Of a DNA stretch of 54,410 bases, positions 24,973 to 53,982 are shown in pieces. Each line of letters opens with the position of its first letter. Position 1 is the stretch's first letter. Made by a program: the position numbers and the translations under genes. The notes under the pieces were generated by a model. It searched no databases and was not told the origin of the DNA. It saw nothing but the letters and a program-made list of their open reading frames with translations. Origin of the DNA: a virus; the IMG/VR virus record IMGVR_UViG_3300044739_000092, positions 1 to 54,410 of that record; one strand, 5' to 3'.

Positions 24973-24991
24973 CGATACCTAAGGAGTACGC

Positions 24992-25420: not shown

Positions 25421-25447
25421 CCGGCCGAAAAAGGAGACTGAACCAGC

Positions 25448-26485: not shown

Positions 26486-26500
26486 GAGGGCTGATCTGAG

Positions 26501-26854: not shown

Positions 26855-26860
26855 TCTGTC

Positions 26861-26892
26861 GCCCGGCGGGACGGGACCTGTTCCCGCCGGGC
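26861..26892 (+). terminator. Strong hairpin after the head genes
   Basis: GCCCGGCGGGA and TCCCGCCGGGC pair over 11 bp around ten bases. It starts only seven bases after the stop codon. No T-run. It is a good candidate for partial termination or 3'-end protection of the capsid mRNA. Confidence 0.7.
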
Positions 26893-26928
26893 GGCCGTCA
26901 CACCAACTTGCTCGAAAGGGGATCCGCC

Positions 26929-27159: not shown

Positions 27160-27160
27160 C

Positions 27161-28350: not shown

Positions 28351-28353
28351 CCG

Positions 28354-30153: not shown

Positions 30154-30157
30154 CCTG

Positions 30158-32893: not shown

Positions 32894-33216
32894 TGGCCGA
32901 CGGCTACGACGCAAACTACGCGGGAATCGGCGAGATGCTGTGCATGCCGGGAATGGTCGCCGACATGCGGCGCCGCGCCGAGAAGGTCAAGGACTTCGCC
33001 GAGGCCACCGCCCCCGTGGACGACAGTGGGCCGCACCCCGGCCGGTACAAGGCCGCGTTCCACGTCGACTCCGGCATCCAGCAGGGCAAGACCCGCCGAG
33101 CGTTCGGCCGGGTCACCAACGACTCCCCCGAAGCGTTCTACGTCGAATACGGCAACCGGAACGTCCCCAAGCACCGCACCCTCGGCACAGCCCTCACCGC
33201 CGCAGCAGGAGACTAA
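32893..33216 (+). CDS. HK97 gp10-like tail-completion protein
   Basis: 107 residues: helix MRRRAEKVKDFAEATAPVDD, then KAAFHVDSG, TRRAFGRVTNDSPEAFYVEYG and HRTLGTALTAAAG. The pattern A...AP...G..K......E.G......P.LG.AL is that of HK97 gp10-type proteins, which finish the tail end. Confidence 0.82.
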   Translation: MADGYDANYAGIGEMLCMPGMVADMRRRAEKVKDFAEATAPVDDSGPHPGRYKAAFHVDSGIQQGKTRRAFGRVTNDSPEAFYVEYGNRNVPKHRTLGTALTAAAGD

Positions 33217-33228
33217 GGAGCCCGCAGC

Positions 33229-33456
33229 ATGAAGAAGATCCGCATCAGCTACAGCCCCGACAACAGCCAGATCGGCACCGTCCGGGAAGTCGAAGACGAC
33301 GAGGCCCGCACGATGGTCCGTGAAGGCCGGGGCGTCCTCGTCGACTCCGACAAGGGGCCCAAGGCCGCCGGCCGATCCGCCGCGACCGGGTCACCCGGAA
33401 CGGCCACCGTGTCCTCCCCCGCGGGCACGTCGAGCTCGACCGCCACGGGTTCCTGA
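33229..33456 (+). CDS. 75-residue neck-region protein
   Basis: KKIRISYSPDNSQIG then VREVEDDEARTMVREGRGVLVD, followed by a low-complexity Gly/Ser/Thr/Ala tail. Small proteins with this beta-beta-alpha core are found near connector genes. ATG after AAGGAG. Confidence 0.6.
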   Translation: MKKIRISYSPDNSQIGTVREVEDDEARTMVREGRGVLVDSDKGPKAAGRSAATGSPGTATVSSPAGTSSSTATGS

Positions 33457-33459
33457 CCG

Positions 33460-33852
33460 ATGCCGTACGCCAGCGTCGAGAAGCTGCTCGTCGCATGGCT
33501 GGAAACGCATCTGACCGCCGAAGCGCGGGTGGTCACGGAGCTGCCCGCCGACCTGGCGTCGAAGCTGCCCGTTGTTCGCGTCACGAAGTTCGGTGGGGCC
33601 GACGATGTGCTGACCATCGACCGGCCGACCGTGGACGTCGACTGCTACGCCGTGAGCCGTGGAGCTGCCGAAGACCTCGCCGAGCAGGTGCGTGACCTGC
33701 TGCGGTTCACACTCCGGGGTCAGACCGTCGGCGGTGTGACCGTGTCACGGACACGGACGATGGTCGGCCCCCACTGGCTGCCGTACGACGACACGGCCCT
33801 GCGCCGCAGCGGCGCGTCGTACGAGCTGACCATCCGCCGACCACTGAACTGA
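33460..33852 (+). CDS. Tail terminator protein
   Basis: 130 residues: ASVEKLLVAWLETHLTAEARVV, LPVVRVTKFGGADDVLTIDRPTVDVDCYAVS, AEDLAEQVRDLLRFTL. Alternating strands and helices of the lambda gpU/SPP1 gp17 group, which caps the tail tube and joins it to the head. It is directly before the major tail protein. Confidence 0.8.
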   Translation: MPYASVEKLLVAWLETHLTAEARVVTELPADLASKLPVVRVTKFGGADDVLTIDRPTVDVDCYAVSRGAAEDLAEQVRDLLRFTLRGQTVGGVTVSRTRTMVGPHWLPYDDTALRRSGASYELTIRRPLN

Positions 33853-33867
33853 TTCCCAACCCTCTGT

Positions 33868-33888
33868 CACCCCGGCCCGACCGGGGTG
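33868..33888 (+). terminator. Hairpin before the major tail protein
   Basis: CACCCCGG-CCCGA-CCGGGGTG, eight perfect pairs and a five-base loop, then TTCCC, 16 bases behind the tail terminator stop. Likely attenuator or RNA-end stabiliser. Confidence 0.6.
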
Positions 33889-33921
33889 TTCCCGCCTGCC
33901 CGCACGAAGGAGACCTGAGAC

Positions 33922-34491
33922 ATGGCGAGCAACGAAGACTTCATGCGAGCCGGCGCAACCGGCGTCGGGTGGACGGGCGCCGTCGGCGTCACGTTCCCCA
34001 CCGGCTTCGCGACACCCGCGACGGGCTGGACCGATGTCGGCTACATCTCCGACGACGGTCTGACGCAGGGCATGTCCGAGGAGCGGAAGTCGTGGACGCC
34101 GTGGGGCCGTACCGCCCCGGTGAAGACGCAGCTCACGAAGGCCGAGAAGACGTTCAAGATCGTCATGTGGGAGACGAACGTCACGACGCTGGGCCTGTAC
34201 TACAAGCAGCCCGCGTCCGCACTGATCCCGGACGTGACGACGGACATCATCAACTTCACCGACGCGAACGGCCTGGACCAGGACCAGCGGGCGTTCCTGT
34301 TCGACGTCGCGGACGGCGCGAACAACCTGATCCGGCACGCTATCCCGCTCGGTGAGGTCACCGGCCGCGGGGACATCGTGAACAAGACCGACGAGATCAT
34401 CGCCTACGAGATCACGATCACCGCCTACCCGGGTTCCGACGGCGTGTCCGTGCACTCCTACTTCAAGCTCGCCGGGATCGAGGGCGCCTGA
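33922..34491 (+). CDS. Major tail (tube) protein
   Basis: 189 residues: WTDVGYISDDGLTQGMSEE, KSWTPWGRTAPVKTQLTKAEKTFKIVMWETN, TGRGDIVNKTDEIIAYEITITAYP. The first motif is standard for actinophage tube proteins (xLGYVSEDGVT...). AAGGAGA before the ATG. It overlaps the chaperone start by one base. Confidence 0.92.
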   Translation: MASNEDFMRAGATGVGWTGAVGVTFPTGFATPATGWTDVGYISDDGLTQGMSEERKSWTPWGRTAPVKTQLTKAEKTFKIVMWETNVTTLGLYYKQPASALIPDVTTDIINFTDANGLDQDQRAFLFDVADGANNLIRHAIPLGEVTGRGDIVNKTDEIIAYEITITAYPGSDGVSVHSYFKLAGIEGA

Positions 34492-34835
34492 TGGCCGCGG
34501 AAAAGGCACTGGCGGCTGTGCAGGCCGAGGTCGAGGCCGAGGACAACGACGGTTCGGTCGTCGTGGAGCTTGTCACCGACGACGGCGCGGAGGACATCAG
34601 CGTTCCGTCGCCGGGCAGGTGGAAGGCGCGGGCGCAGCGGATGCTCGCGCAGGGCGACTTCGACTCGTGGGCCGAGGTTGTGCTGCCCGAGGCTGACCGG
34701 GCGAAGTGGGTCGAACTCGACCCGACGAACGATGACGTGCAGGCGTTCTTCGAGAAGTGGAAGGACGTGGGCGGGCAGGACACGGGAAAATCGTCGAGCT
34801 CGCGGCGCTCCTCGAAGGGCACAGCGAGGCGGTAG
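34491..34835 (+). CDS. Tail assembly chaperone, short form
   Basis: 114 residues: ISVPSPGRWKARAQRMLAQGDFDSWAEVVL, KWVELDPTNDDVQAFFEKW. Equivalent of lambda gpG; it keeps the tape measure soluble. The short form ends with a Ser/Arg-rich stretch (TGKSSSSRRSSKG) that is read after passing the slippery site in frame. Confidence 0.9.
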   Translation: MAAEKALAAVQAEVEAEDNDGSVVVELVTDDGAEDISVPSPGRWKARAQRMLAQGDFDSWAEVVLPEADRAKWVELDPTNDDVQAFFEKWKDVGGQDTGKSSSSRRSSKGTARR

Positions 34836-35311
34836 AAGCCGACATCGCCCACCACTATCCGGGCCGGGACCTGCGGGACCTGTTCCGGGGGCGGATGACG
34901 TGGCGCGAGCTCGGGGTGCTGATCGACCATCTGCCGTCGGAGTCGGCGACGGTGACCGCGATCCGTGACGGCATGACCCCGGAGCAGTTGGCGGCGTTGC
35001 CGAAGCCTGATGGTCACGGGCCGTGGTCGCGGGTGGAGGCCCTCCTGGCCGATGTCTACGACCAGCTGGGGTGGCTGATCTACGCGGTCGCCGCGGCGAA
35101 TGGCGGGAAGCCGCAGGAGCCGAAGCCGATGGCCCGGCCCGGTGTGGGTTCGTCGTTCCGGGTGCCGCCGTCGGCCGAGGTCATGGGCCACATGGTGGCG
35201 ATGCGGAACCGGCCCGGCGCCACACCGCTGCGGGGCGCCGGCCCGAAGGACCGTGCCGCGGCGGCACGTCACCTGACCGAGATGCGGAACCGTGAAGGGG
35301 GTGGCCCGTGA
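34491..35311 (+). CDS. Tail assembly chaperone, long form by -1 frameshift
   Basis: Ribosomes that slip back at G-GGA-AAA read on in the -1 frame from 34790 (IVELAALLEGHSEAVEADIA) to the stop at 35311, giving a fusion of about 273 residues like lambda gpGT. The C-terminal part has HYPGRDLRDLFRGRMTWRELGVLIDHLP and DQLGWLIYAVAAANGGK, which are typical of siphophage gpT-type domains, and it has no plausible start codon of its own at the needed place. It ends overlapping the tape measure start by four bases. Confidence 0.88.
34784..34790 (+). promoter_or_regulatory. -1 ribosomal frameshift slippery site
   Basis: GGGAAAA, read in the zero frame as G-GGA-AAA, the same class as lambda's G-GGA-AAG. 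After slipping, both tRNAs re-pair (GGG, AAA). Position close to the 3' end of the short gene fits the family. No clear pseudoknot was worked out by eye. Confidence 0.88.
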
Positions 35312-38300
35312 CGTCTCCCATCAACGTCGGCTCCGTCGGGGTCACGGTCGTCCCCGACGCGCGCCGGTTCGCGCCGATGATGCGGCAGCAACTGAACCCG
35401 CAGGCGAAGAAGCTCGGCGAGGACATCGGCCGGGACATCTCCGACGGCATCGCGAAGAAGCTGCGTGCGGGGAAGACGCCGACGATCGGCGTGGACGCGG
35501 ACACAGGCAAGGCGCGGGCGGAGCTCGACCGGGTCGGCGCGCAGGCGGACCGGCTGGGCCGGTCGTCGCCGACCATCGGGGTCGACGTCGACACCGGTGG
35601 TGCGCACGCCAAGCTGACCGCTTTGCAGTCGCAGGCGGCGTTCACGGGTATCGGGCTGGCCGGCCTGGCCGGGGCGGGGCTGCTGATCGGCGGCGCGATC
35701 GTCCCCGCAGCGGCGGCCGCGGCGGTCGCGGTGGCCGGTATCGGAACGGCCGCCCTGGCCGCCGGTGTGGGCCTGGGCACGCTGGCGTTGGGGTTCGCCG
35801 GCATCGGCGGGGCGGTGAAGGCGCTGGGTGAGGCTCAGCGGGACGCCGGGAAGAACACTGCCACGGTGGCGGCCCGGCAGACGCAGGTCGCCGCGGCCGT
35901 GGATCAGGTCCGGTCGGCCGAGTCGTCGCTGGCGAATGCGCGCGCGAACGCCGCGGACGGCGCCCGCCGGGCCGCGGAGCAGGTCCGCACCGCGGAACAG
36001 GCACTCGCGCAGGCGCAGCAGCAGGCCCGTGCCGCGCAGGAAGGGCTCACGCAGGCCCGGCGGGACGCCCGGCAGGCCATGCAGGACCTGGCGTTGCAGG
36101 TCGCCGGCGGGGCCCTCGCGCAGCGGCAGGCGAACCTGGATGTGCGGCGGGCGAAGATCGAACTCGACCGGGTGATCGCGGACCCGAAGGCGACTTTGAT
36201 GCAGCGGCAGCAGGCGCAGCTGTCGTACGAGCAGGCCGTGCAGCAGCTCGACGAGCAGACGGTGCGGAATCAGCGGCTCCGGCAGGAGAAGACTGCCTCG
36301 GACCGGGCTGGTGTGAACGGGTCGCGGCAGGTCGCTGCGGCGCAGGACCAGATCGTGACGGCAACCGAACGTGTCCGTGCCGCCCGCCGCGATGTGGCGC
36401 AGGCCCGCATTCAGCAGGCGACGCAGGAGCGGCAGTCGGCGTTCGCGATCGCGCAGGCGCAGCAGGCCGTGGTGTCGGCGCAGCGTTCCCTTCAGACGGC
36501 GACCGTGTCCGCGGGGACGGCGGGGTCGGCGGCGATGCTGAAGCTGAAGCAGGAGATGGACGGCTTGTCGCCGGTCGGGCAGCGGTTCGCCCGGTTCCTG
36601 TTCTCGCTGAAGCCGCGCCTGGACGCGCTCCGTGCGACCGCGCAGGCCGGGATCCTCCCCGGGGTCCACGCTGGGATCGTCTCGCTGCTGCCGCTGTTCC
36701 CGCAGCTGAACCGTCTCGTCGCGTCCGTCGCCGGCGTGTTCGGCGACATGTTCGCCTCAGCTGGGCGGGCGCTGACGTCGCCGTTCTGGCGCGGCTTCTT
36801 CGACTACCTGGTTGCCACCGCGGCGCCGACGCTGATGCAGATGGGTCAGGTCGTCGGGAACTTGATGCGCGCGTTCGCGGGCCTGTTCATGGCGTTCGAC
36901 CCGGCGGCGAAGGACTTCGGCGGCGGCCTGGTGGAGATGACCGGCCGGTTCGCCGACTGGTCGGCGGGGCTGCGGGACAACCGGGGGTTCCAGGAGTTCC
37001 TGGCCTACATCCGGGAGCAGGGCCCGAAGGTCGTCGCGGTGATCGCGTCGGTCGCCGCGGGTGGTGCGCAGCTGGTTCAGGCGTTGGCCCCGATCGGCGG
37101 GGTCATTCTGGACGGGATCAGTGCTCTCGGTGACGGCCTGTCGGCGATCCCGGCCGAGGTTCTGACGGTCATCGCCATCGGCATCGGCGTGACGACCGTG
37201 GCCGTGTGGGGGCTGAACATCGCGCTCGGTGTGATCGCGGCGAACCCGGTGGTGTTGTGGGCCCTGGCGGTCGGTGTGGCGATCACGGCCCTGGCCGCGG
37301 CGGTGGTGTTCGCGTGGAACAAGTTCCCGGCGTTCCGGGCCGCGGTGATGGCCGCTTGGCAGGGCATCGTTGCCGCGTCGAAGTGGGCGTGGGAGAACGT
37401 CCTCAAGCCCACGTTCAACGCGATCTCGGACGTGATCATGCACGTCATCGTGCCCGCCGTGATGTGGCTGTGGCGCAACGTCGTCGAGCCGGCGTTCACA
37501 GCGATCGGCGCCATCGTGTCGTTCTGGTGGAACAACATCGTCAGGCCCTACTTCACCGCCGTCATGTGGCTGATCCGCAACGTCGTGGGCCCGGTCTTCC
37601 TGTGGCTGTGGCGCAACGTGATCCAGCCCGCGTTCACCGGAATTCGGGTCGCGATCTCAATCGCGTGGGCGTCGATCCGGGTCGTCTTCGGGCTGATCCA
37701 GATCGGTCTCAAGGTCCTGTCGGCGCCGTTCCTGTGGCTGTGGCGCGGCGTCGTCCGCCCTGTGTTCGAGGGCATCGGCTTGCTCATCGGAGTCACATGG
37801 CGGAACGTGATCCGACCCATCTTCCAGGCGTTGGGCGGGTTCATCGAAAAGTACGTGGCGCCCGGGTTCGCCGCCGGCGTGAAGGCCGTCGGGAAGGCGT
37901 GGGACAAGATCCGGGACATCGCGAAGGTCCCGGTGAAGTTCGTCATCGACACCGTGCTGAACAAGGGCATCCTGGCCGGGTACAACAAGGTCGCGAAGCT
38001 GTTCAAGGTCAAGCCGGACAACGTGCAGATCCCGTTGCCGAAGGGCTTCGCCGAGGGCGGCATCTTCCCCGGGTACACGCCGGGGCGGGACGTGGGCATG
38101 ATCGGCGTCTCCGGTGGTGAGGCGATCATGCGGCCGGAGTGGACCCGCGCCGTCGGGCCCGGCTACGTGGATGCCGCGAACCAGGCCGCGCGGGTCGGCG
38201 GCACCGAGGGTGTGCGCCGGTGGATGGGCGGGTTCGCCGACGGCGGGATCGTCGGCTGGATCACCAAGCCCCTCGACGCGCTGAAGGAACTCGGCAATTC

Positions 38301-39015
38301 GGAGTTCGCGCGGGCGATCGCGGCGATCCCGAAGAACATCGCCGACACGATCGTCGACAAGGTGAAGGGCTTCGTCGGTCTCGGCGCGGACGGGAAGGGC
38401 CCGGCGCCGAGCGGGGTCGTCAACGCCGGTGCGGGTGCGGCGTCGTGGCCGTCGATCGTGTCCCTCGCCCGCGCATCCGGGGTGCCGTTCAACGTCACCT
38501 CGACACAGCGGAACACGGACGACTACCACGGCCGCGGTCTCGCGGTGGACATGGCGTCGTCGACGGCGAACATGGCGAAGCTGGCGCGGTTCTTCTACAA
38601 CATGTCGTCGTTCGAACTGGAGCTGATCCACTCGGGTGGCGGCGGGTTCTTCGTGAAGAACGGGCGCCGGGTCGGAGCGGACTTCTACCGGTCGGTGATC
38701 GGGCAGCACTACAACCACGTGCACGTCGCGATGACGAACCCGGCGGTCGCGTCGGCCCGGTCGGCGTTCGCGTACGACTCGGGCGGCTACCTCCCTCCCG
38801 GCCTGTCGACGGTCTACAACGGCACCGGCAGGCCGGAGCCGGTGCTGACCGGCCATCAGTGGGACCGGATGCAGAGCTCCGCCTCGGGCGGAACGTTCAC
38901 CGGGAACCTGACGCTCGAGGACGGGACGTTCATGGGCCGGGTTCGCGGGGAGATGCACGCGGTGGTGGACCAGTTCGCTGGGCAGATGGCCGATGCGCGC
39001 ATCTACGGGGGCTGA
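35308..39015 (+). CDS. Tape measure protein with embedded M15-like peptidase
   Basis: 1235 residues. Long Ala/Gln coiled coils occupy ~160-460. Hydrophobic helices follow near 110-170 and 580-690, and a Trp-rich repeat (W-x-W-R-N-V/I-x-x-P-x-F, about eight times) spans ~690-840. Near 1040-1150 lies a D-Ala-D-Ala peptidase-type domain, HGRGLAVDMASS (H-x-x-G-x-A-x-D) and NHVHVAM (the second zinc ligand). It should thin the peptidoglycan as DNA enters. A GTG start overlaps the chaperone stop. The length suggests a tail of roughly 180 nm using the usual 1.5 angstrom per residue rule. By far the longest gene here. Confidence 0.93.
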   Translation: MTSPINVGSVGVTVVPDARRFAPMMRQQLNPQAKKLGEDIGRDISDGIAKKLRAGKTPTIGVDADTGKARAELDRVGAQADRLGRSSPTIGVDVDTGGAHAKLTALQSQAAFTGIGLAGLAGAGLLIGGAIVPAAAAAAVAVAGIGTAALAAGVGLGTLALGFAGIGGAVKALGEAQRDAGKNTATVAARQTQVAAAVDQVRSAESSLANARANAADGARRAAEQVRTAEQALAQAQQQARAAQEGLTQARRDARQAMQDLALQVAGGALAQRQANLDVRRAKIELDRVIADPKATLMQRQQAQLSYEQAVQQLDEQTVRNQRLRQEKTASDRAGVNGSRQVAAAQDQIVTATERVRAARRDVAQARIQQATQERQSAFAIAQAQQAVVSAQRSLQTATVSAGTAGSAAMLKLKQEMDGLSPVGQRFARFLFSLKPRLDALRATAQAGILPGVHAGIVSLLPLFPQLNRLVASVAGVFGDMFASAGRALTSPFWRGFFDYLVATAAPTLMQMGQVVGNLMRAFAGLFMAFDPAAKDFGGGLVEMTGRFADWSAGLRDNRGFQEFLAYIREQGPKVVAVIASVAAGGAQLVQALAPIGGVILDGISALGDGLSAIPAEVLTVIAIGIGVTTVAVWGLNIALGVIAANPVVLWALAVGVAITALAAAVVFAWNKFPAFRAAVMAAWQGIVAASKWAWENVLKPTFNAISDVIMHVIVPAVMWLWRNVVEPAFTAIGAIVSFWWNNIVRPYFTAVMWLIRNVVGPVFLWLWRNVIQPAFTGIRVAISIAWASIRVVFGLIQIGLKVLSAPFLWLWRGVVRPVFEGIGLLIGVTWRNVIRPIFQALGGFIEKYVAPGFAAGVKAVGKAWDKIRDIAKVPVKFVIDTVLNKGILAGYNKVAKLFKVKPDNVQIPLPKGFAEGGIFPGYTPGRDVGMIGVSGGEAIMRPEWTRAVGPGYVDAANQAARVGGTEGVRRWMGGFADGGIVGWITKPLDALKELGNSEFARAIAAIPKNIADTIVDKVKGFVGLGADGKGPAPSGVVNAGAGAASWPSIVSLARASGVPFNVTSTQRNTDDYHGRGLAVDMASSTANMAKLARFFYNMSSFELELIHSGGGGFFVKNGRRVGADFYRSVIGQHYNHVHVAMTNPAVASARSAFAYDSGGYLPPGLSTVYNGTGRPEPVLTGHQWDRMQSSASGGTFTGNLTLEDGTFMGRVRGEMHAVVDQFAGQMADARIYGG

Positions 39016-39018
39016 CGG

Positions 39019-39795
39019 GTGGCGACGCTGACCGCGACGGTGCAGCCGGGGAATGTGCCGCCGCGGGTGTTCCTTCAGCTGACCGGTGCGACGGGTACGA
39101 CGGTGGAGGTTGGCCGGCAGGACGCGGATGGCCGGACCAGGCCGGTGCGGGGCGGTGACCCGGGGACGTTGTCGGGTGGGACGTGGGTGGGCTACGACTA
39201 TGAGTCGTGGTTCGGGCAGCCGATGGTGTACGAGGCTGTGACGTCCGGTGGCACGACCCTGTCCGCGTCCGTGCAGCTGGATGTGGCCGATGTGTGGCTG
39301 CGGCACCCGGGGGCCCCGGATCTGTCGGTGATCGTGGAGATCCACGGTGAACCGGACGAGACGTACGCCTTGAATCGTCTGGTCACTGCGCCTCTGGGCC
39401 GGACCTACCCGATCGTGACGACCGACGGCCGGCGGAAGGCGAAGACCGCGACGATGGTCGTGGCGACGTGGGACGACGACCAGCGGAACGCGCTGCACAA
39501 CATCGTTGCCGATGGGGCGCCGCTGCTGCTCGATGTGCCCCCGGCGAAGGGCTGGGGCCTGGAGCACCAGTACATGGCGATCGCGGATGTGACCGCGGCG
39601 CGTGCGACACCGGAGCTGGCGGAGTTCGGTGGGCGTCTGTGGTCGCTGCCGTATGACGAGGTGGACCGTCCGGTGGGCGGCCAGCAGGCGCAGTGGACGT
39701 ACGCCGACGTGCTCGCCCGGTACGCCACCTACAACGCGGTGAAGGCCGCATACCTGACGTACAACGATCTGCTCGCGAACACGCCGAGCCCCTGA
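39019..39795 (+). CDS. Distal tail-like protein
   Basis: 258 residues, beta-rich: TLTATVQPGNVPPRVFLQLTG, GDPGTLSGGTWVGYDYE, VWLRHPGAPDLSVIVEIHGEPD. Pattern and place after the tape measure fit Dit-like minor tail proteins of actinophages, which form the hub at the tail tip. GTG start. Confidence 0.75.
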   Translation: MATLTATVQPGNVPPRVFLQLTGATGTTVEVGRQDADGRTRPVRGGDPGTLSGGTWVGYDYESWFGQPMVYEAVTSGGTTLSASVQLDVADVWLRHPGAPDLSVIVEIHGEPDETYALNRLVTAPLGRTYPIVTTDGRRKAKTATMVVATWDDDQRNALHNIVADGAPLLLDVPPAKGWGLEHQYMAIADVTAARATPELAEFGGRLWSLPYDEVDRPVGGQQAQWTYADVLARYATYNAVKAAYLTYNDLLANTPSP

Positions 39796-40889
39796 TGCGG
39801 GCACAGACGACCGGTTTCTTCGATGCCCTGCGTTACTCGCACACCGTCGCCACGAAGGTGGAGTTATGGTCCGGGCTCACGCTCATCGAAGGCGATGTGC
39901 CGATCAGCGGCGGGTCGGTGACGGTGTCATCCGACCGTGGGGTGCGCCGGAAACTCGATGTGACGATCACCGACACGACGCTGTGGGACCTGCTGGTCCC
40001 GGGCGTGGAGCTGCGCGCGTACAGGGGTGTTGCGTTCCTGAACGGGCAGACCGAGTACTCGGCCCTCGGGGTGTTCCGGGTGGACCGCCGGTCGATCAGT
40101 GCGGGGATCTCCGACAGCATCGTGGTGTCGTCGGCGCCGGACCGGTTCGCCCGCGTCCAACGGGCCCGGTTCACCTCGCCCGAGGCGTCCACGCTCGGCG
40201 CGCTGGTGCGGGACGAGATCCGGCGCCTGATGGTCGCCGCGGTGCCCGCCGCCGGGTACGAGGTGACGGCCACGTCGGCGGCAACGGTCGGCGCGCTGGT
40301 GTGGGACCGGGACCGAGACGAGGCGATCAACAAGGACCTGGCGCCGGCGATCGGCGCCGAGGCGTACTTCGACCCGGACGGGAACATCGTGGTCCGGGAC
40401 GAGCCGACGATCGTGACGGCACCGGTGTGGACGGTCGACGCCGGTGTGTCGTCGGCGGTGCTCGTTGCCGGTAGCCGCAGCGTGGACGACTCCCGCACGT
40501 ACAGCGGGGTGGTGGTGCGCCCGTCGAACGTGGACGGCGCGGTGCCGTTCACGCCGCAGATCGTGTGGGACACCGACCCGCTCTCACCCACCTACGTGAG
40601 CGTGTACGGGCAGGTGCCGTACTTCTACTCCTCCCCGGTCATCACCACCGCGGCACAAGCGTTGGCGGCGGCGAACACGCTGCTCCCGAAGGTGACGAGC
40701 TTCAACTCCCAGCTGGACCTGACGGTGGCGGCGAACCCGGCGCTCGAGCCGGGGGATGTGCTGACGGTGCGGTTCCTCGATGGGCTGGAGCAGCGGCACA
40801 TGGTCGACTCGTTGACGATTCCGCTGGGCTTGGGCGACATGACGATCGCGACGCGGTCGTCCAGCCCCGAGATTCCTGAGGAGCCGTAA
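39795..40889 (+). CDS. Tail hub protein (DUF5047-like)
   Basis: 364 residues: KVELWSGLTLIEGDVPISGGSVTVSSDRGVRRKLDVTITD, YSALGVFRVDRRSIS, YEVTATSAATVGALVWDRDRDEAINKDLAPAIGAEAYFDPDGN. This matches DUF5047 tail proteins, which correspond to the N-terminal hub half of Tal/gp27 proteins. One-base junction with the Dit-like gene. Confidence 0.82.
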   Translation: MRAQTTGFFDALRYSHTVATKVELWSGLTLIEGDVPISGGSVTVSSDRGVRRKLDVTITDTTLWDLLVPGVELRAYRGVAFLNGQTEYSALGVFRVDRRSISAGISDSIVVSSAPDRFARVQRARFTSPEASTLGALVRDEIRRLMVAAVPAAGYEVTATSAATVGALVWDRDRDEAINKDLAPAIGAEAYFDPDGNIVVRDEPTIVTAPVWTVDAGVSSAVLVAGSRSVDDSRTYSGVVVRPSNVDGAVPFTPQIVWDTDPLSPTYVSVYGQVPYFYSSPVITTAAQALAAANTLLPKVTSFNSQLDLTVAANPALEPGDVLTVRFLDGLEQRHMVDSLTIPLGLGDMTIATRSSSPEIPEEP

Positions 40890-44312: not shown

Positions 44313-44356
44313 GCGGCCCCTCTCTTGTCCTTCGGGACGGGAGAGGGGCCGCTTTT
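44313..44356 (+). terminator. Late operon terminator with UUCG tetraloop
   Basis: Twelve perfect pairs, GCGGCCCCTCTC with GAGAGGGGCCGC, two U-G pairs, four more pairs (GTCC/GGAC) and a TTCG loop, followed by TTTT. This is a nearly ideal intrinsic terminator. It separates the phage late genes from the convergent minus-strand operon and may serve both. Confidence 0.93.
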
Positions 44357-44783: not shown

Positions 44784-45098
44784 CTAGGCCACAGCAGCAG
44801 CGCGGGCGAGGCGGCTGGCGTGGTTGTAAGCGAGCCGAGCGGCGAGGTTCCGCTCCCGCTTCGGGTCAGTCGACGGCGGGATGCCGGGACGGGCGGCGTC
44901 GATGGCCGTCGCGATGCGCTCGCGCTCCTTCTCGGCTCCTCGCTGTTCGGCTGCCGCCTCACGGGCGGCCACGAATGGGGCCAGCGCGTCGAGCACGTCG
45001 AGCACGTCGTCGCCCGAGTCCGCAGCGTTCCACGCCGCCCCTTCCTCCTCGTCTGTCCACTGCCAGGTGGTTGCCTGCTCGTCCGGCGTCTCGCTCAC
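44784..45098 (-). CDS. 104-residue acidic coiled-coil protein
   Basis: N-terminal acidic patch (QWTDEEEGAAWNAADSGDD), then a coiled coil (FVAAREAAAEQRGAEKERERI), ending in a helix YNHASRLARAAAVA. GTG start in a four-base overlap with the RHH gene. Unknown function. Confidence 0.6.
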   Translation of the reverse strand: MSETPDEQATTWQWTDEEEGAAWNAADSGDDVLDVLDALAPFVAAREAAAEQRGAEKERERIATAIDAARPGIPPSTDPKRERNLAARLAYNHASRLARAAAVA

Positions 45099-45373
45099 GG
45101 TTCGACCTTCCTGAGTGTCACGACTGTCTCCCCGAGGGTGCCGTGGATCGGACCTTCCTCGACCACGTACAGGCCGTCGTCGCCGTGCCTGAGCTTCACG
45201 AGGTCCACCGTGTCCCCAGGTGCCAGGACCGGGGCCGCCGCATACCGTTGCAACGACTCACGCACCACACTGCTCACCGTCTCACCGTGCCTCTCCGCCT
45301 TCGCGGCAGCGGCATCCCACGTGTCATCGGGGATGCGGATGTTGTGGTTCGGCGTGTGTGAAGGGTTCGGCAC
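45095..45373 (-). CDS. Ribbon-helix-helix regulator
   Basis: 92 residues. The start HNIRIPDDTWDAAAAKAERHGETVSSVVRESLQRY is a ribbon-helix-helix DNA-binding fold (the strand HNIRIP contacts the major groove), followed by a beta-rich C-terminal part (VDLVKLRHGDDGLYVVEE). GTG start. Divergent from the membrane/FtsK operon with palindromic repeats in between, so it is the likely controller of both operons. Confidence 0.8.
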   Translation of the reverse strand: MPNPSHTPNHNIRIPDDTWDAAAAKAERHGETVSSVVRESLQRYAAAPVLAPGDTVDLVKLRHGDDGLYVVEEGPIHGTLGETVVTLRKVEP

Positions 45374-45495: not shown

Positions 45496-46221
45496 ATGAC
45501 ACAACAGTCATCAGGAGCCGTACCGGCGGTGCCGCCAACGCAGACCACCGTCGGCACGGCCCTGCCAACAGGCCGAGGCTGGGCCTACACCGGCGCCATC
45601 CTCGGCATCACCGTCTCCGTCACCGCCAACATCGCCCACGCCCGCATCCCCACCCACCCCCACACCGGTGCCGTCGCATTCGCCGCCCTCTGGCCCCTGT
45701 TCCTGTTCGTCACCATCGAAATCATGGCCCGCACCCCGTGGCCCCACCTCCACCGCTGGAAGTGGGTCCGCTTCGGCGGACTCACCATCGTCGGCGTCGT
45801 CGCAGCGATCGTGTCGTACCGGCACCAGGCCGGGCTCCTCGCCTTCTACGGCGAAGACAGACTCACCACGATCATCGGACCCTTGGCGGTGGACGGGCTA
45901 CTGCTGACAGCGACAGGCGCGCTGATCGCCACGTCACGGACACGACAGTCCACGCCAGCACCCGCCACGACCGCCACGGCTGTCACCCCCACGCCGGCGC
46001 CTGTCCGGGTCGCCCAGGACAAGGCCGCCACAGCCCCGCCACCTGTCACCACGCCCCGGCCGCCCCTGTCACCCCCCGACCAGTCCCGCGCCTACGTCGC
46101 GTCCCACCCCGACATGACACGCGACCAGCAGGCCGCCGCGCTCGGCATCTCCCCCCGCACACTCGCCCGCCACCTCGCACAGCCCACGAAGCTCACCGCC
46201 GTCAACGGAGGCACATCGTGA
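45496..46221 (+). CDS. DUF2637-like membrane protein with C-terminal HTH
   Basis: 241 residues. Four TM helices: WAYTGAILGITVSVTANIAH, AVAFAALWPLFLFVTIEIMA, GGLTIVGVVAAIVSYRHQAG, IIGPLAVDGLLLTATGAL. The pair IVSYRH...L and PLAVDGLL is the DUF2637 signature. After a Thr/Pro linker comes TRDQQAAALGISPRTLARHLA, an HTH. DUF2637 proteins are first in transfer operons of actinomycete integrative elements and plasmids, where they lie upstream of the FtsK/TraB-like gene, as here. They may serve spread through the mycelium (Spd-like). ATG nine bases after the last operator half-site. Confidence 0.8.
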   Translation: MTQQSSGAVPAVPPTQTTVGTALPTGRGWAYTGAILGITVSVTANIAHARIPTHPHTGAVAFAALWPLFLFVTIEIMARTPWPHLHRWKWVRFGGLTIVGVVAAIVSYRHQAGLLAFYGEDRLTTIIGPLAVDGLLLTATGALIATSRTRQSTPAPATTATAVTPTPAPVRVAQDKAATAPPPVTTPRPPLSPPDQSRAYVASHPDMTRDQQAAALGISPRTLARHLAQPTKLTAVNGGTS

Positions 46222-46415
46222 CCCCGACCCGCAGAGTCCTGATCTTCACTGGGGAGTGGGCGGCGATCCTCGCCTTCTGCCTTCTCCTCCTGGCGCTCTT
46301 CCTCAAGTCGGTGCCCGCCGTCTTCTGGGCACTGGGGCTGGTCGGTGTCACCATCGTCACGTCGCTGGTCGAGGAGTTCCTCCGGGGCGACGAGGAAGAG
46401 GAGGCGGCCCGATGA
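46218..46415 (+). CDS. 65-residue membrane protein
   Basis: Two hydrophobic helices (EWAAILAFCLLLLALFLKSV and VFWALGLVGVTIVTSLVEEFL), then an acidic end (GDEEEEAAR). GTG in a four-base overlap with the DUF2637 gene. Small two-TM proteins at this place resemble Spd proteins of Streptomyces plasmids by position only. Confidence 0.65.
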   Translation: MTPTRRVLIFTGEWAAILAFCLLLLALFLKSVPAVFWALGLVGVTIVTSLVEEFLRGDEEEEAAR

Positions 46416-46621
46416 TCACCGAGGCCCTCGCGATCCTGGTCCTCCTCGCTGCTGGCCTGTGGTTCGGCTACCGCGGTCGCAGCTTCTTCGCCCCGATCTG
46501 CTACATCCTGATCGGCGTCATCCTCGCGGGCGGCACGTTCACCGGGGCAGCGAGTCACGGCGGCCACATCGTCACGACCGTGGCGACCCAGCTCGCCAGC
46601 TACGTCGGGGGGAAGGCGTGA
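46412..46621 (+). CDS. 69-residue membrane protein
   Basis: Two hydrophobic segments (ALAILVLLAAGLWFGYRG; ICYILIGVILAGGTFTGAA) and a Thr/Ala-rich end. Four-base overlaps on both sides. Second small membrane protein of the same putative transfer operon. Confidence 0.65.
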   Translation: MITEALAILVLLAAGLWFGYRGRSFFAPICYILIGVILAGGTFTGAASHGGHIVTTVATQLASYVGGKA

Positions 46622-48255
46622 CCGCGCCCACCGAACCCCCCGCCCCGGCGCCCGAGGTGTCGAGGCCCCGCCCTACCGTGTCCCGGACGCCCCGCCCGTC
46701 GCGTACCAAGCGGCGGGCCATCGCCGTGCCTGTGCTCCTTGCCGGCGGTCTGCTCGCGTTGGTTGCGTCGCAGGGCGGTTGGCTGCTGCTCCTCGCGGCG
46801 GCGGGTGGTACGGCTGCGGTGGGCGGCGGCCTGTGGGTGTCGGCTCGGCGACGTGCCGGGATGCGGTCGGGTCGTGGTTCTCGTCGGCAGCAGCGGTTCC
46901 GGCGTCCTCAGCGGGCGCCGCGCCAGTTCGGCGGGTTCGCTCCCCGCCGCCCGGCCGCCGCGGGGATCCGTCACGTCGGCGGCAACGCCGGGCGCGGCAT
47001 GGGCCGGGCAGCTGGTCGCGCGGCGGGTGGTGTCGGTGCGGTCGGCCGTCGCGCTGCTGGTGCGGGCCGGGGCGCCGCGTCGCGCGTCGATGCGTCGGCT
47101 CGACGCGGCAAGCAGGCGGCCGGTTCGGTTGCGGCGTCTGGCCGGAAGAAGGCGCAGTCCGCGCTGCGGATCCCGGGCCGGTCGAGCACCGGGCGCCCCG
47201 CGAAGCCCGCGAGCTCGGCAGCTGGTCATCGGCCGTCGTTCGCCAGGGGCCGGAAGTCGGCCACGCCGCGCGCTACGGGCGCGGCGAGCAAGACCGGACG
47301 CTCGGGCCGCGGCGGCGGGTTCCGGATTCCCGGCATGTCGAGCGGCCGGACCGGTGGCCGCACTGGTGGCAGGGCAGGTGGCGGCCGGATGTTCGGCGGC
47401 AAGGCGACACCCCGCCGCGCCCCCGGCATGTCGGCCGGGCGTCTCGGCAACGCGGCGCGACGGCTCACCGGACGGACACGACCCGCCGCCGGTGCCACCC
47501 CAGGCGCCGGCACGGCACGGGCACCCGGGCAGCGCGTCCGTGGTGTTCGGGGTGTCCTCGGCCGGACACGCGGTCGGCTGACCGGACGCCCCGCGCCGAC
47601 ACGGACACGGACACGACGCAAGGTGACACCCGGCAAGACGACCCAGGCACCGACGCTGACACGGCGCGCCGCCCGCCGAGCCATGACAGCCACCCGGGCA
47701 GGTGCCCTGCGGACCGGACGCGGCACCCGATCACTCGCCCGACGCATAGCCCGCCGCCTGTGGAACGCCCCCGCCGCCGCTGTCACCGCACTCACCGGAC
47801 CCGCCTACCCCCGAACCCCGGCCGCCACCCTCGGCACCCCACCTGTCACCACCCCGGCCGCCACTGCCAGGCCGACACCGCAACTCGCCACCGCTGGAGG
47901 ACCCGCCATGTCCCACCCCGCCATCGACCCATCCGTCGAAGCCGCGAACAGCCTCGGCGGCTACGAATTCCGCCACATGAGCGACATCCGGAACTTCACC
48001 TCCGCCGCCCCCGAATCCATCGCCGCCCTCGCCGCCGCCTACGCCGCCGTCGCCAACCGGCTCGCCGACACCCCCGCCGCATCCGGTGTCGCCGAGGTGT
48101 ACTCCCAGATCGCCGGCAGCCTCTCCGCCTCCGCCGACACCGCCGGGGAAGCCTCCGGGCTCCTTGCCGCCGCGAACCAGGACGACTTCCAGCGCATCGA
48201 CAACCCCCGCCCCAACGAGGGCATGGCCGACTACGGCCCCAACGCCGCAGGCTGA
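46618..48255 (+). CDS. 545-residue basic membrane protein of the transfer operon
   Basis: N-terminal Pro-rich cytoplasmic part, two TM helices (IAVPVLLAGGLLALVASQGG and LLLLAAAGGTAAVGGGLWVS), then ~350 residues extremely rich in Arg, Gly, Ala, Pro and Ser with repeats such as RTGGRTGGRAGGG. The last 115 residues (from MSHPAIDPSVEAANSLGGYEF) are an ordinary helical domain. A DNA-coating, Arg-rich membrane protein just before an FtsK/TraB-like pump suggests a role in holding or feeding DNA. No homolog is recognised by name, though actinomycete elements often have such a protein here (SpdA/SpdB-like). An internal ATG at 47908 with a strong ribosome site may yield the helical domain alone. Confidence 0.65.
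   Translation: MTAPTEPPAPAPEVSRPRPTVSRTPRPSRTKRRAIAVPVLLAGGLLALVASQGGWLLLLAAAGGTAAVGGGLWVSARRRAGMRSGRGSRRQQRFRRPQRAPRQFGGFAPRRPAAAGIRHVGGNAGRGMGRAAGRAAGGVGAVGRRAAGAGRGAASRVDASARRGKQAAGSVAASGRKKAQSALRIPGRSSTGRPAKPASSAAGHRPSFARGRKSATPRATGAASKTGRSGRGGGFRIPGMSSGRTGGRTGGRAGGGRMFGGKATPRRAPGMSAGRLGNAARRLTGRTRPAAGATPGAGTARAPGQRVRGVRGVLGRTRGRLTGRPAPTRTRTRRKVTPGKTTQAPTLTRRAARRAMTATRAGALRTGRGTRSLARRIARRLWNAPAAAVTALTGPAYPRTPAATLGTPPVTTPAATARPTPQLATAGGPAMSHPAIDPSVEAANSLGGYEFRHMSDIRNFTSAAPESIAALAAAYAAVANRLADTPAASGVAEVYSQIAGSLSASADTAGEASGLLAAANQDDFQRIDNPRPNEGMADYGPNAAG
47908..48255 (+). CDS. Possible separate translation of the C-terminal helical domain
   Basis: In frame inside the previous gene, an ATG lies six bases after GGAGGA, much better than the start of the long gene. 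It would give a 115-residue acidic, helical protein (FTSAAPESIAALAAAYAAVA; VAEVYSQIAGSLSASADTA). This repeats the plan of phage and ICE genes in which a C-terminal domain is also made alone. Only ribosome-site quality supports it. Confidence 0.4.
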   Translation: MSHPAIDPSVEAANSLGGYEFRHMSDIRNFTSAAPESIAALAAAYAAVANRLADTPAASGVAEVYSQIAGSLSASADTAGEASGLLAAANQDDFQRIDNPRPNEGMADYGPNAAG

Positions 48256-48270
48256 GGAAGGACAACAACC

Positions 48271-50403
48271 GTGCGCGAGTCCGAACGGCAGCGGATCGTC
48301 GCCGAGGAGACCGCCGACGAATGGCCCTACGAGGCCTGGTCGAACCCCGTCAGCGCGATGCTCGGCACGTACCTCCTCGGCGTCCTGCTGCACATGGCGG
48401 ACGTGTCACCGTGGTGGCCGCTGCTGACCGGGCTCGCTGTCACCGTCACGTGGGTCGGCTGCACCGTGTCACTCGGCACCAAGGACCTTGGTGTCGGGTA
48501 CGCGGCGGCAGTGTCCCTGTCGGTGACAGGGTGGCTGACATGGGCCGCCGGACACCCGACACTCGACATCCGGAACTGGCCTGTCACCCGCGACTCGTGG
48601 TGGATCCTCGCCACCGCCACCGCCATCCTCGCCGTCGTGTGGGGTGTCCTCATCCGGCAACGCGCGAACGCTGTCGCTGACGTGGCCGACCGTCTCCGCG
48701 GTGTCACCGGACAGGGCGACAGTTGGGAAGACGCCTGCCGGCAGGCCGGGATCGCCGGCTGGGAGTACGAGTCGCAGGAGACGACACCCGGCGGCATGAA
48801 GGTGACGATGCGGATCCGCCCGGGTGGCACCACGTACCGGCAGGCCCTCGGCTCGGTGGAACGGTTGGAGTCGTGCGTCGAGGCCCCGTACCACGGCGCG
48901 GTGCGAATCGAGAAGGGCGCGAACGCCGCCCGGGCGGTCATCGTGTGGAACGAGCGGAACATGCTCGCCGAGGTCCTGCCGTACCCGGACGACATGTCGC
49001 CGACGGACATCGTGAAGCCGATGACGACCGGCATGTTCGAGGACCGCATCCCGGCGACCGTCACTTACGCGTACCGGTCGAGCCTCACCCTGGGGCAGCG
49101 GGACGGCGGCAAGAGCAACGAGAACGCGGTGAAGATCGCGAACCTCGTCCGCGCCCCCAACGTCCTCATCTGGCTGTCGTGTTTCAAGCAGGGCTCGGCC
49201 GCGAAGCCGTGGCTGGCCCCGTACGCCGCCGGGCAGGCCGCCGCGCCCGCCCTCGACTGGGTGACCGTGTGCACCCCCGCCGACATGGCTGGTGTTGAAG
49301 CGCAACTCGACGCGCTCGACCGGATCGGGAACGAACGCGCCCGACGGCGCACCAGCGACAAGATCGTGCCCACCCCGGAGCAGCCCGCGATCCGCCTCAA
49401 CATCGACGAAATCGCCGACCTGCTGGCCGACCCGCGGAACTACCGCATCGCCGCGAAACTCGTCCTCGTCCTGCGTAAGCACAGGTCAGAGGGCATCGAC
49501 CTTGATCTTGCTTCCCAGCGGGGCACCATGTCGTTCCTCGGACAGTGGGCCCGCGACATCGCCTCCCAGGTCAGCATCGTCAACGTGTTCAAGGTCGACA
49601 ACCCCGCCGAGGTGTGGAACGCCCTCGGCTTGGACCGGTCCCGGATCGGCGGCATCGACCCGTCCACATTCGAGTACCAGGGCACGATGCTCACCGTGGC
49701 GCCCGGCGCCCGGATCGCGCCGCAGAAGGTGTTCCGCATCAACCACGACGACCCCCTCGCCGTCCCCAAGCTGGCGGCTGCCGGCGCCGCGCACCGGCCC
49801 CAGCTCGAGCAGTCGGCTGTGGCGGCGGCGGGGCCGCAGTACGCGCGCCGTTGGCAGACCGACCAGGTCCGGGCCCTGCTGGTGGATGCGGCGCGGATCG
49901 TCGGCGGCCAGTATCAGCCCGCGCACGTTCCCGCCGTCGGCCACGCGACCGTCCCCGCCTCGGTCCCCGTGCAGGTGGCGGGTCCGCCGCGGTTGCGTGC
50001 CGTGCCGTACCTCGACCCCACCAGCAGCGTCCCCGTCGAACGGCAACTCGGCCTCCACAAGATCGACGGCCGGCAGATCCTCGTTGACCAGTTCGGGCCG
50101 GTGGAGGGCGAGAAGGCGTGGCAGTTCGCGCAGGGCTACAACCTGCTCGTCGAGGCCCGCCGGATCCTCGCCGCCACCCCCGACCGGGCGTTGCCGACGC
50201 GGGACCTCCTCGACCAGTTGGCGTTGCGGCCGAAGTGGGACGGGCTCACCCCGGAACGCCTCGCCGAGCTCGTCCGCCCGCACGGCGTGAGGCCTGACCA
50301 GCTGGGGGCGTCGCGGTTCCCGGGGAACCCGCGCGGCTACCGCCTCTCCAGCGTCGAGGAGGCGCTGCGGCAGCCCGCCGAGGACTCCCCGACACCGGCG
50401 TAG
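48271..50403 (+). CDS. FtsK/TraB-like DNA translocase of conjugative-element type
   Basis: 710 residues. Four N-terminal TM helices (AMLGTYLLGVLLHMADVSPW; LLTGLAVTVTWVGCTV; YAAAVSLSVTGWLTWAAG; WWILATATAILAVVWGVLI). The FtsK/HerA ATPase has GQRDGGKS (275-282, a full Walker A) and AIRLNIDEIADLL (Walker B, near 370). The C-terminal part has two helical segments and a winged-helix-like end (RRILAATPDRALPTRDLLDQL, PERLAELVRPHGVRPDQLG, GYRLSSVEEAL), in the place of the FtsK gamma/TraB wHTH that reads DNA repeats. Length and layout fit TraB/Tra of Streptomyces plasmids and AICEs, which move double-stranded DNA between cells with this one protein. The 8-mer repeats just after the stop support that. 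AGGAAGGA ribosome site; GTG start. Confidence 0.82.
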   Translation: MRESERQRIVAEETADEWPYEAWSNPVSAMLGTYLLGVLLHMADVSPWWPLLTGLAVTVTWVGCTVSLGTKDLGVGYAAAVSLSVTGWLTWAAGHPTLDIRNWPVTRDSWWILATATAILAVVWGVLIRQRANAVADVADRLRGVTGQGDSWEDACRQAGIAGWEYESQETTPGGMKVTMRIRPGGTTYRQALGSVERLESCVEAPYHGAVRIEKGANAARAVIVWNERNMLAEVLPYPDDMSPTDIVKPMTTGMFEDRIPATVTYAYRSSLTLGQRDGGKSNENAVKIANLVRAPNVLIWLSCFKQGSAAKPWLAPYAAGQAAAPALDWVTVCTPADMAGVEAQLDALDRIGNERARRRTSDKIVPTPEQPAIRLNIDEIADLLADPRNYRIAAKLVLVLRKHRSEGIDLDLASQRGTMSFLGQWARDIASQVSIVNVFKVDNPAEVWNALGLDRSRIGGIDPSTFEYQGTMLTVAPGARIAPQKVFRINHDDPLAVPKLAAAGAAHRPQLEQSAVAAAGPQYARRWQTDQVRALLVDAARIVGGQYQPAHVPAVGHATVPASVPVQVAGPPRLRAVPYLDPTSSVPVERQLGLHKIDGRQILVDQFGPVEGEKAWQFAQGYNLLVEARRILAATPDRALPTRDLLDQLALRPKWDGLTPERLAELVRPHGVRPDQLGASRFPGNPRGYRLSSVEEALRQPAEDSPTPA

Positions 50404-50405
50404 CA

Positions 50406-50487
50406 CCCGCTATAGCGGGCCCGTAGCGCCCCACCCGGGGGCCCGCTACGGGGCGTCCCGCTACGGCCCCCGCTACTGGCCCGCTAC
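50406..50487. repeat. Array of CCCGCTAC 8-mers behind the FtsK/TraB-like gene (clt-like)
   Basis: CCCGCTAC occurs exactly at 50442, 50457, 50469 and 50480; CCCGCTAT at 50406 overlaps its own inverse to make the perfect 14-bp palindrome CCCGCTATAGCGGG (50406-50419); an imperfect inverted copy lies at 50423. All start within two bases of the stop codon and spacing drops from 36 to 15, 12 and 11. Streptomyces clt loci hold such 8-bp repeats next to traB, to which the TraB winged helix binds (for example GACCCGGA in pSVH1). The transfer-origin role is an inference. The remaining 143-base gap has no ORF. Confidence 0.72.
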
Positions 50488-50546
50488 ACCCGGCTTGGCC
50501 TGCGAGGTAGCACCCACATGACCGCATCGGAGAAGGGGGGCCAACC

Positions 50547-51149
50547 GTGGCTCGGAGACGTCGTTCCAGACGGCGCCGCAGTGACGCGAGGGTGGTGCTC
50601 GCCCTGGGCGGTCTGATGGCCGTGTACTGGGGTCTGTTGCAGGCGTACCGGTGGGTGCTCGGGCACCGGGTCACAGCGGCCGGGATTGGCGCCGGGGTGG
50701 TGGCCGTCGGCGTGTTCGCGTTGCGGGTGTGGTGGCGTCGTCGTCGCGGCCGGAGGGCGGCGGTGCGGCGTCTGGCCTCGTTGGGTGATGGGACGGGGAA
50801 GGCCGCGGAGGAGCTGGTCGCCGAGTTGCTGCGCCGGGACGGTTGCACCGGCGTGGAGGTGCGCGGCGGGGGTGGTGATCTGGGTGCGGATGTGACGGGG
50901 ATGTTGCCGGGTGGTGGCCGGGTTGTGGTGCAGGTGAAGGACTACGCGAAGCCGATCGGTAGCCCGGCGTTGCAGACGTTCAATGGGACGTGTTGGGCGG
51001 AGCATGGGGCGGATGTGGCGGTGTTCGTGACGACGTCCAGCTTCACCAGTGCCGCGGTGGCGTTCGCTGGCCGGTCGGGTATCGAGTTGGTGGATGGGGC
51101 TGGGTTGGCGGCGTGGATGGGCGGGGAGTCGATGGGCTCGGCGGCGTGA
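50547..51149 (+). CDS. Membrane-anchored Mrr-like restriction endonuclease
   Basis: 200 residues. A very basic N-terminus, two TM helices (VVLALGGLMAVYWGLLQAY; AAGIGAGVVAVGVFALRVWW), then a Mrr_cat-type nuclease: GKAAEELVAELLRRDG with Glu, GGGDLGADVTGML with the catalytic Asp, RVVVQVKDYAKPIGSPALQTFNG with Q-x-K. Similar membrane Mrr-like proteins are widespread in actinomycetes. It would cleave DNA close to the membrane, for instance unprotected DNA entering by conjugation or phage injection. It directly follows the clt-like array. GTG start with GAAGGGGGG before it. Confidence 0.8.
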   Translation: MARRRRSRRRRSDARVVLALGGLMAVYWGLLQAYRWVLGHRVTAAGIGAGVVAVGVFALRVWWRRRRGRRAAVRRLASLGDGTGKAAEELVAELLRRDGCTGVEVRGGGGDLGADVTGMLPGGGRVVVQVKDYAKPIGSPALQTFNGTCWAEHGADVAVFVTTSSFTSAAVAFAGRSGIELVDGAGLAAWMGGESMGSAA

Positions 51150-52953: not shown

Positions 52954-53982
52954 GTGGAAGACCTGGACGCTGAACTGCTCCCCGCGGTACCCGACGCACC
53001 CCCAGGAAACATCGTCCACGCGGGGGAAATCGAGCGGGCCAACCGCTACCTCAAGCGCGCCAAGTCCGACGCCACCCACGGCGCCTACGCCCAGGACTGG
53101 GCCCGGTGGACAGAGTGGTGCGCCGAAACCGGCCGCGACCCAGGCGTCCCCGCGGACCCGTTCGCGGTCGTCGCCTACGTCACCGCTCTCGCCGACGCAG
53201 GCTCCCCGCCCTCCACGATCCTGCGCCGACTGTCCGGACTCGGATACGAACACCGTCGCCGCGGCCACGACTCCCCCGCCCGGCACCCCGCCGTGTCCGA
53301 GGTCATGTCCGGAATCCGCAACGTCGCCGCCGACGGCGGCCACCGCACCCGCCAGGCCGCCCCCCTCGACACCGCCACCGTGCGACTGCTCGTAGAGGAC
53401 ATGCCCACCGGACTGGCCGGCGCCAGAGACCGGGCCATGCTCCTCCTCGGCTACGGACTCGGACTCCGGTCACGGGAGATCGTCCGCCTCAGCGTCCGAG
53501 ACATCACCGACATCGGAGCCGGGGGCGTCGAAGTCTTCATCGCGCAGTCGAAGACCGACCAGGGAGGCGCCGGAGTCACGCTGGCCCTCCCCCGGTCACC
53601 GCGGGAATCCACCTGCCCAGCCCGCGCAGTCCTCGCGTGGATCGAGGCCGCCCAGCTCACCGACGGGCCGCTGTTCCGCAACATCGACCGACACGGCAAC
53701 CTCGTCCCGCCCGGACTGGACAGCCGCGGACGTCACCGCGGCGACCGGATGGCCCGAGAGTCGGTCGGCCGGATCATCCACCGCGCCTGCCTGAACGCCG
53801 GGATCCTGTCCGGAGGATTCTCCGCTCACTCGCTGCGGCGCGGCTTCGCGACCACGGCGTACCGCATCGGCAAGGACGAGAAGGAGATCAGCCGCACCGG
53901 CAGATGGCGCCACCTGCCCACCCAGCGCCGATACGACGCGAGCAGCCGGTGGGAGAAACCAGCTGGCGGACTGGACCTGTAG
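52954..53982 (+). CDS. Tyrosine recombinase
   Basis: 342 residues. SAM-like N-terminal domain (YLKRAKSDATHGAYAQDWARWTEWC, VAYVTALADAGSPPSTILRRLSGL). Catalytic residues: Arg in GLGLRSREIVRL (near 175), Lys in QSKTDQ, H-S-L-R-R in the HxxR motif, W/H in GRWRHLP and Tyr in QRRYD. All six are present. Its tail is short. It is most similar in outline to actinomycete plasmid/transposon integrases, not to arm-binding phage integrases, since it lacks an N-terminal arm-type domain. It gives the element a second recombination enzyme besides the serine integrase. GTG after AGGGGGA; four-base... the stop shares a base with the next start (TAGTG). Confidence 0.92.
   Translation: MEDLDAELLPAVPDAPPGNIVHAGEIERANRYLKRAKSDATHGAYAQDWARWTEWCAETGRDPGVPADPFAVVAYVTALADAGSPPSTILRRLSGLGYEHRRRGHDSPARHPAVSEVMSGIRNVAADGGHRTRQAAPLDTATVRLLVEDMPTGLAGARDRAMLLLGYGLGLRSREIVRLSVRDITDIGAGGVEVFIAQSKTDQGGAGVTLALPRSPRESTCPARAVLAWIEAAQLTDGPLFRNIDRHGNLVPPGLDSRGRHRGDRMARESVGRIIHRACLNAGILSGGFSAHSLRRGFATTAYRIGKDEKEISRTGRWRHLPTQRRYDASSRWEKPAGGLDL

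Follow-up and report, generated by a model that had tools for sequence, protein, structure and literature searches.

A putative TraB-clt DNA transfer module inside the genome of an integrating actinomycete siphophage

The DNA analysed here (the window), linear and 54,410 bp long, is a virus record from IMG/VR that holds an integrated siphophage. It is best explained as an integrating siphophage that carries a clt-dependent module for the transfer of double-stranded DNA, a TraB-clt system of the type found on actinomycete plasmids and AICEs, a reading to which we assign a probability of roughly 0.58. The phage and its attachment site were delimited by the following features.

1..1204, plus strand: host DNA, with a methyltransferase ORF at 1-696 (Methyltransf_24, Pfam) and the 5' part of xth (exonuclease III) from 707
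1205..1212, plus strand: attL core TTCGTCGC, common to the host attB and the phage attP; the point at which host sequence switches to phage sequence
1219..2676, minus strand: serine integrase, adjoining attL (PHROG 95, E=6e-77; 97% amino acid identity in the sister phage)
19958..40889, plus strand: siphophage packaging, head and tail genes (PHROGs), namely TerL (19958-21619), portal (21633-23159), protease (23143-23997), major head (25448-26485), major tail (33922-34491), tape measure (35308-39015) and tail proteins (39019-40889)
52954..53982, plus strand: tyrosine recombinase (PF00589, E=3e-13; 99% amino acid identity in the sister phage)

TerL, portal, major head, major tail and tape measure genes, together with an integrase and att sites, indicate a temperate siphophage. 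A phage-plasmid is extrachromosomal and carries plasmid replication or partition genes, whereas this element is integrated at xth, with attL and a serine integrase. Bases 1-1212 of the window were identical (1212/1212) to a contig of the MAG 'Actinomycetota bacterium BP_184', and the prophage cuts xth after about codon 171. One contig of this MAG ends precisely at TTCGTCGC, while a second starts with the same 127 bases, runs on into an uninterrupted xth and represents the empty attB. These 127 shared bases resemble a break made by the assembler at a branch point, which would be expected if occupied and empty sites coexisted. The xth of the host, an uncultured actinomycete, has its nearest relative in Motilibacter (80%), and no TraB match was found in the host MAG. 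The preliminary description had called the prophage complete. Its packaging, head and tail genes bear this out, but its right side does not: the remainder of xth is absent from the 54,410-bp window, so that no attR lies inside it, and alignment with a sister phage contig places the right edge about 0.55 kb short of attR. The tyrosine recombinase, a second recombinase besides the serine integrase, lies between the module and attR.

The module and its immediate surroundings comprise the following features.

44313..44352, plus strand: intrinsic-terminator-like hairpin of 18 pairs, before the module
45095..45373, minus strand: small protein, encoded divergently from the module and weakly similar to FitA-like ribbon-helix-helix proteins
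45496..46221, plus strand: DUF2637-like membrane protein with a C-terminal HTH (Pfam, E=1.8e-4)
46218..46415, plus strand: small TM protein (ORF and hydrophobic segment analysis)
about 46412..46621, plus strand: small TM protein (ORF and hydrophobic segment analysis)
46618..48255, plus strand: large basic protein of 545 aa, net charge +77, with two N-terminal hydrophobic (TM) segments
48271..50403, plus strand: TraB/FtsK-type DNA translocase (ATPase) of 710 aa
50400..50512, plus strand: clt-like array with nine GCTA/TAGC cores and the consensus CCCGCTAC, beginning within the traB stop codon
50494..50505, plus strand: CTTGGCCTGCGA box within the array, resembling TTTGACCTGCGA of other arrays
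50547..51149, plus strand: Mrr-type nuclease (Mrr_cat, E=1e-24) with two N-terminal hydrophobic segments

The gene list first proposed for the module was thus recovered in full, from the DUF2637-like protein through to the membrane nuclease. The DUF2637 assignment scored 21.9 bits, slightly below the Pfam cut-off of 22.8, in a protein with three hydrophobic segments. The terminator said to precede the module is present, but the module does not follow it directly, as three minus-strand ORFs (44365-45373) intervene. Relatives of the last of these (45095-45373) occupy the same place in the sister phage and also lie upstream of the module of a prophage in genome G264. The nuclease shows 88% conservation with its counterpart in the sister phage and is similar to type IV restriction enzymes. 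On a Streptomyces plasmid, a gene annotated as a restriction endonuclease (locus L100, 6635-7348) lies downstream of an FtsK gene, which recalls this arrangement.

The ATPase carries an intact Walker A motif (GQRDGGKS, at residue 275) and a Walker B-like motif (IRLNIDE), as had been described. Searched singly it gave no match to Pfam FtsK, and it matched PHROG 31069, 'FtsK/SpoIIIE-like', with E=3.4e-18. A profile of the family recovered the FtsK motor in the PDB (E=8e-11), and a profile of seven family members matched the motor of pIJ101 TraB (hhalign, 97.8%). Its matches in Streptomyces phages and on 25 to 34 actinomycete plasmids are translocases with about 25% identity. The protein therefore combines the FtsK/SpoIIIE-type motor and the hydrophobic N-terminus of a TraB-type transfer system. 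Membrane segments are indeed present, although the count of four given previously is uncertain: hydropathy revealed two strong segments, and an AF2 model built from a two-sequence alignment (pLDDT 35) was too poor for counting them. At the C-terminus, where a winged-helix domain was sought, there was weak similarity to the C-terminal part of DUF3631 (E=0.013).

The place of the module within the phage was established with the sister contig IMGVR_UViG_3300044808_000022 (whole record 42.6 kb), which is colinear with the window from about 17.9 kb onward in the order major head, post-tail region, module, tyrosine recombinase, attP, integrase and early genes. The preliminary question of whether the block recurs with the same serine integrase is answered by this phage, whose major head protein is 59% identical to that of the window. 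Its module lies between the lysis genes and an intact attP (CTGTGTGGGTTAGCG...TTCGTCGC...CGCTAACCCACAG) followed by the integrase, and host DNA is absent between module and integrase. This arrangement firmly supports a module that is part of the phage genome. We also considered an attR between 44.3 and 45.4 kb, or between the lysis genes and the module, and rejected it, as the module side of the sister contig reaches attP.

Conservation between the two phages is uneven. The right end and integrase (window 52881-54387 and 1196-2661) are 95-98% identical, the module is 73% identical at the DNA level, and TerL is 31% identical, a pattern of strong mosaicism around attP. In the sister contig a 160-bp inverted repeat (5397-5557 versus 13334-13494, 89.5%) flanks the module; this is perhaps a duplicated small gene.

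Directly at the end of traB, the array of 8-mer repeats noted at the outset was confirmed. Within about 110 bp it contains four exact copies of CCCGCTAC and six of CCCGCTA, the latter being the highest 7-mer copy number among all 163-bp stretches of the record. A repeat-coverage score alone was indecisive, since the window also contains GC-rich coding stretches with scores as high, and we therefore relied on copy number, position and concerted change. The last of these came from comparison with the sister phage, in which the cores read GTTA instead of GCTA at nine of nine positions and the unit is CCCGTTAC instead of CCCGCTAC; eight of the nine carry the identical base change in the alignment, and the ninth lies nearby, out of register. 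The remaining core bases are conserved at 25 of 27 positions, compared with 88 of 129 in the surroundings, and CCCGTTA is confined to the array within the whole sister contig. Such a concerted switch is the pattern expected for the sites of one DNA-binding protein whose specificity is shifting. Because the HTH of the DUF2637 protein is almost unchanged between the two phages while the motor and C-terminal part of TraB are only 51-58% identical (N-terminus, 89%), TraB would be the better candidate for the reader of the array. In plasmid pWTY27, clt spans the final 16 bp of traA plus 159 bp beyond it, contains 7-bp repeats that are protected by the Tra protein in footprints, and is required for transfer (PMC3583192). 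The window array shares this layout and position and, by analogy, is a putative clt. Together with the homology of the ATPase to plasmid and AICE transfer ATPases, it upholds the kinship to transfer loci that had been proposed.

Arrays of this kind were common among relatives. Searches of 395 genomes of the host's class gave 18 TraB-like matches, 16 of them with a 3' end that could be read. In 15 of the 16, some 7-mer occurs three or more times in the 163 bp past the stop, a test that was backed by shuffling for part of the loci. The repeat units vary (for example GACAAGC, CTGGGAC, GAGACGA, CGTCCAC and GTGTGCA), and arrays also follow traB on plasmid pFQ12 (GACGCAA, seven copies) and on an S. 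mobaraensis plasmid (GGTGCGA). By the repeat test an array after traB was absent from several other plasmids and from the phages Hiyaa, PIS 136, ZL12 and NootNoot. A box with at most three mismatches from TTTGACCTGCGA occurs in or beside the array at nine loci (window 50494-50505, L002 on the sister contig, L115, L129, L130, L132, L133, L136 and L143), on the same strand and about 48-110 bp past the traB stop, next to repeat units that differ from one another. As TTTGACCTGCGA was chosen by eye from six of the nine loci, with P1312, L130 and L136 unseen at that point, we regard this recurrent box as a lead.

In phylogenetic trees the ATPase grouped with plasmid and AICE translocases, and phage and plasmid copies interleaved. 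Five changes of the phage label were counted, at least three of them forced by well-supported branches; a tree from a larger set gave four, at least two of them forced. This topology points to repeated exchange of the translocase between phages and plasmids. Where the clade of the window TraB falls among the plasmid clades is poorly supported, and the donor is therefore not named. A pattern search with the window TraB alone returned no genome relatives, and a seven-sequence TraB alignment held no stretch conserved enough to serve as a search pattern. Searches with the TraB of the G264 prophage or of pFQ12 yielded no viral contigs, and one with the P1312 TraB found near-identical contigs. A further siphoprophage, with genes for a serine integrase, TerL, a head protease and a tape measure protein, lies in the G264 chromosome (C19, 330001-390000). 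Its TraB, on a pTH1-like branch that differs from that of the window, is followed by an array. Further phage carriers of such a translocase are ZL12/pZL12, Hiyaavirus, PIS 136, the NootNoot group and three Streptomyces phage-plasmids.

From these features we infer how binding, pumping and transfer might proceed, and what the accessory proteins and perhaps the nuclease might contribute. The serine integrase would excise the prophage as a circle. TraB, anchored by its N-terminal membrane segments, would dock on the CCCGCTAC array through a winged-helix-like C-terminal domain, form a ring and, at a septum or where cells touch, drive the double-stranded circle across the membranes. Passage through cross-walls may be aided, in the manner of Spd proteins, by the DUF2637-like protein, the two small TM proteins and the basic membrane protein, and in the recipient the integrase would insert the circle into xth.

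Three findings weigh against transfer: the ATPase is distant from experimentally proven TraB proteins (long branches, and the low identity to plasmid relatives given above), several phages retain a related translocase without an array, and some plasmids, such as pTH1, carry the ATPase family beside relaxase and T4SS-type genes. Plasmids of the last kind imply that a TraB-like protein is not always a conjugation engine. The main rival, which we consider unlikely, is that the module serves as a spreading or partition device, by which the excised phage DNA crosses septa and enters spores but stays inside a single mycelium. Besides pTH1, the presence of related translocases on lytic-type phages and the proposal of DNA segregation by the P1312 authors (PMC4569894) favour it, and in Streptomyces plasmids spreading is hard to tell from stability (PMC4170104). 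A clt-like array at the end of traB is nevertheless a hallmark of transfer-type Tra proteins, and no par genes were recognised in the module.

A captured translocase with a phage-specific job appears distinctly improbable; on this reading it would bring incoming phage DNA into the cell, exclude superinfecting phages or act in defence alongside the Mrr-type nuclease, and the array would be an operator. The conservation of the nuclease and its likeness to type IV restriction enzymes would suit such a role, as would the PHROGs category of the ATPase family (moron/host takeover), but plasmids and an AICE that lack phage genes have the same gene group and array, and PADLOC recognised no complete system here. 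That the module is decaying, functionless cargo of plasmid origin is very improbable: its lower conservation (73% against 95-98% for the right end and integrase) could be read that way, yet all of its frames are open, the Walker motifs are intact, and the array has been both retained and switched in concert. Least credible of all is a separate integrative element next to the phage, as the preliminary description had allowed, for although attR itself falls outside the window, the sister contig joins the module side through an intact attP to the same integrase with no intervening host DNA, which excludes a neighbour unless that contig is misassembled.

If the reading as a TraB-clt transfer module is true, the prophage has two ways out of the cell, as a particle and by conjugation, the latter needing neither receptor nor lysis; gene flow in actinobacteria would be wider, and the boundary between phages and conjugative elements blurred. 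One element may thus spread both as a phage and by conjugation, and up to now such dual spread has mainly been reported for a single Streptomyces plasmid-phage. A broader proposal, that integrating siphophages of several lineages independently acquired a complete, working traB-clt module and exist as a prophage, as a virion and as a conjugative circle of AICE type, the specificities of array and TraB shifting together between sister phages, is tentative and in our judgement falls somewhat short of even odds. The TraB/array pairs form a data set for how TraB reads its repeats, and since the sister phages differ by one base per repeat, the recognition rule is directly testable. The presence or absence of a clt-like array can likewise be used to divide up the phage proteins annotated only as 'FtsK-like translocase'.

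Among known systems, pZL12/ZL12 (GQ919031) resembles the window in having a membrane protein, a large protein and an FtsK/SpoIIIE-like protein in a row beside structural genes. As cited by later articles, replication, transfer and a lytic cycle were reported for it (Zhong et al. 2010, J Bacteriol 192:3747; via PMC4487206, PMC3583192), which makes it a precedent for the dual idea (Zhong et al. 2010, cited in PMC4487206, PMC7157519). Unlike the window element, it lives as a plasmid, its TraB sits on a long separate branch, and an array directly after traB was not detected. Thermobifida fusca phage P1312 (KT021004), which was isolated and forms virions, shares the serine integrase, a TraB-like gene and downstream repeats (GTGAC/GTCAC, with a TCTGACCTGCGG box), but its TraB is of the pTH1-like branch; it behaved as lytic, and its authors discussed neither conjugation nor the array (PMC4569894). 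The Streptomyces Hiyaavirus phages Hiyaa, Galactica, Spocter and Keanu have a homologous FtsK-like translocase with membrane-protein genes upstream, one of them weakly similar to DUF2637, but no comparable array after the gene and a TraB of a different branch. Streptomyces phage-plasmids of 90-99 kb (NZ_CP108279 from S. atratus, NZ_CP108469 from NBC_01259 and NZ_CP108353 from NBC_01353) combine phage head or tail genes with a traB homologue on one circular molecule; they differ in their plasmid-type par genes (ParA or ParB), in a separate TraB clade and in the absence of a significant post-traB array.

AICEs likewise unite a site-specific integrase and a single TraB-type transfer ATPase on one integrated element, and a related TraB with an array occurs in an AICE-like element with a DUF3631 Rep and a tyrosine integrase. 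AICEs have no virion genes, unlike the window, and initiate replication with RepSA, RepAM/DUF3631 or Prim-Pol (Ghinet et al. 2011, PMC3218068). A Pfam scan of ten proteins of the early region and flanks recognised no AICE-type Rep, and the window element is not filed as an AICE. The traA-clt locus of pWTY27 has an FtsK-like Tra with N-terminal TM segments and an array over the end of tra and the adjacent DNA (PMC3583192); it and other Streptomyces tra-clt loci differ in being experimentally proven, in their repeat sequence and in residing on plasmids. With pZL12, P1312, Hiyaavirus and the phage-plasmids already known, the combination is less unprecedented than the preliminary description suggests and its novelty is lowered. 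What is new is a putative traB-clt module in siphophages that integrate into the chromosome, seemingly acquired more than once.
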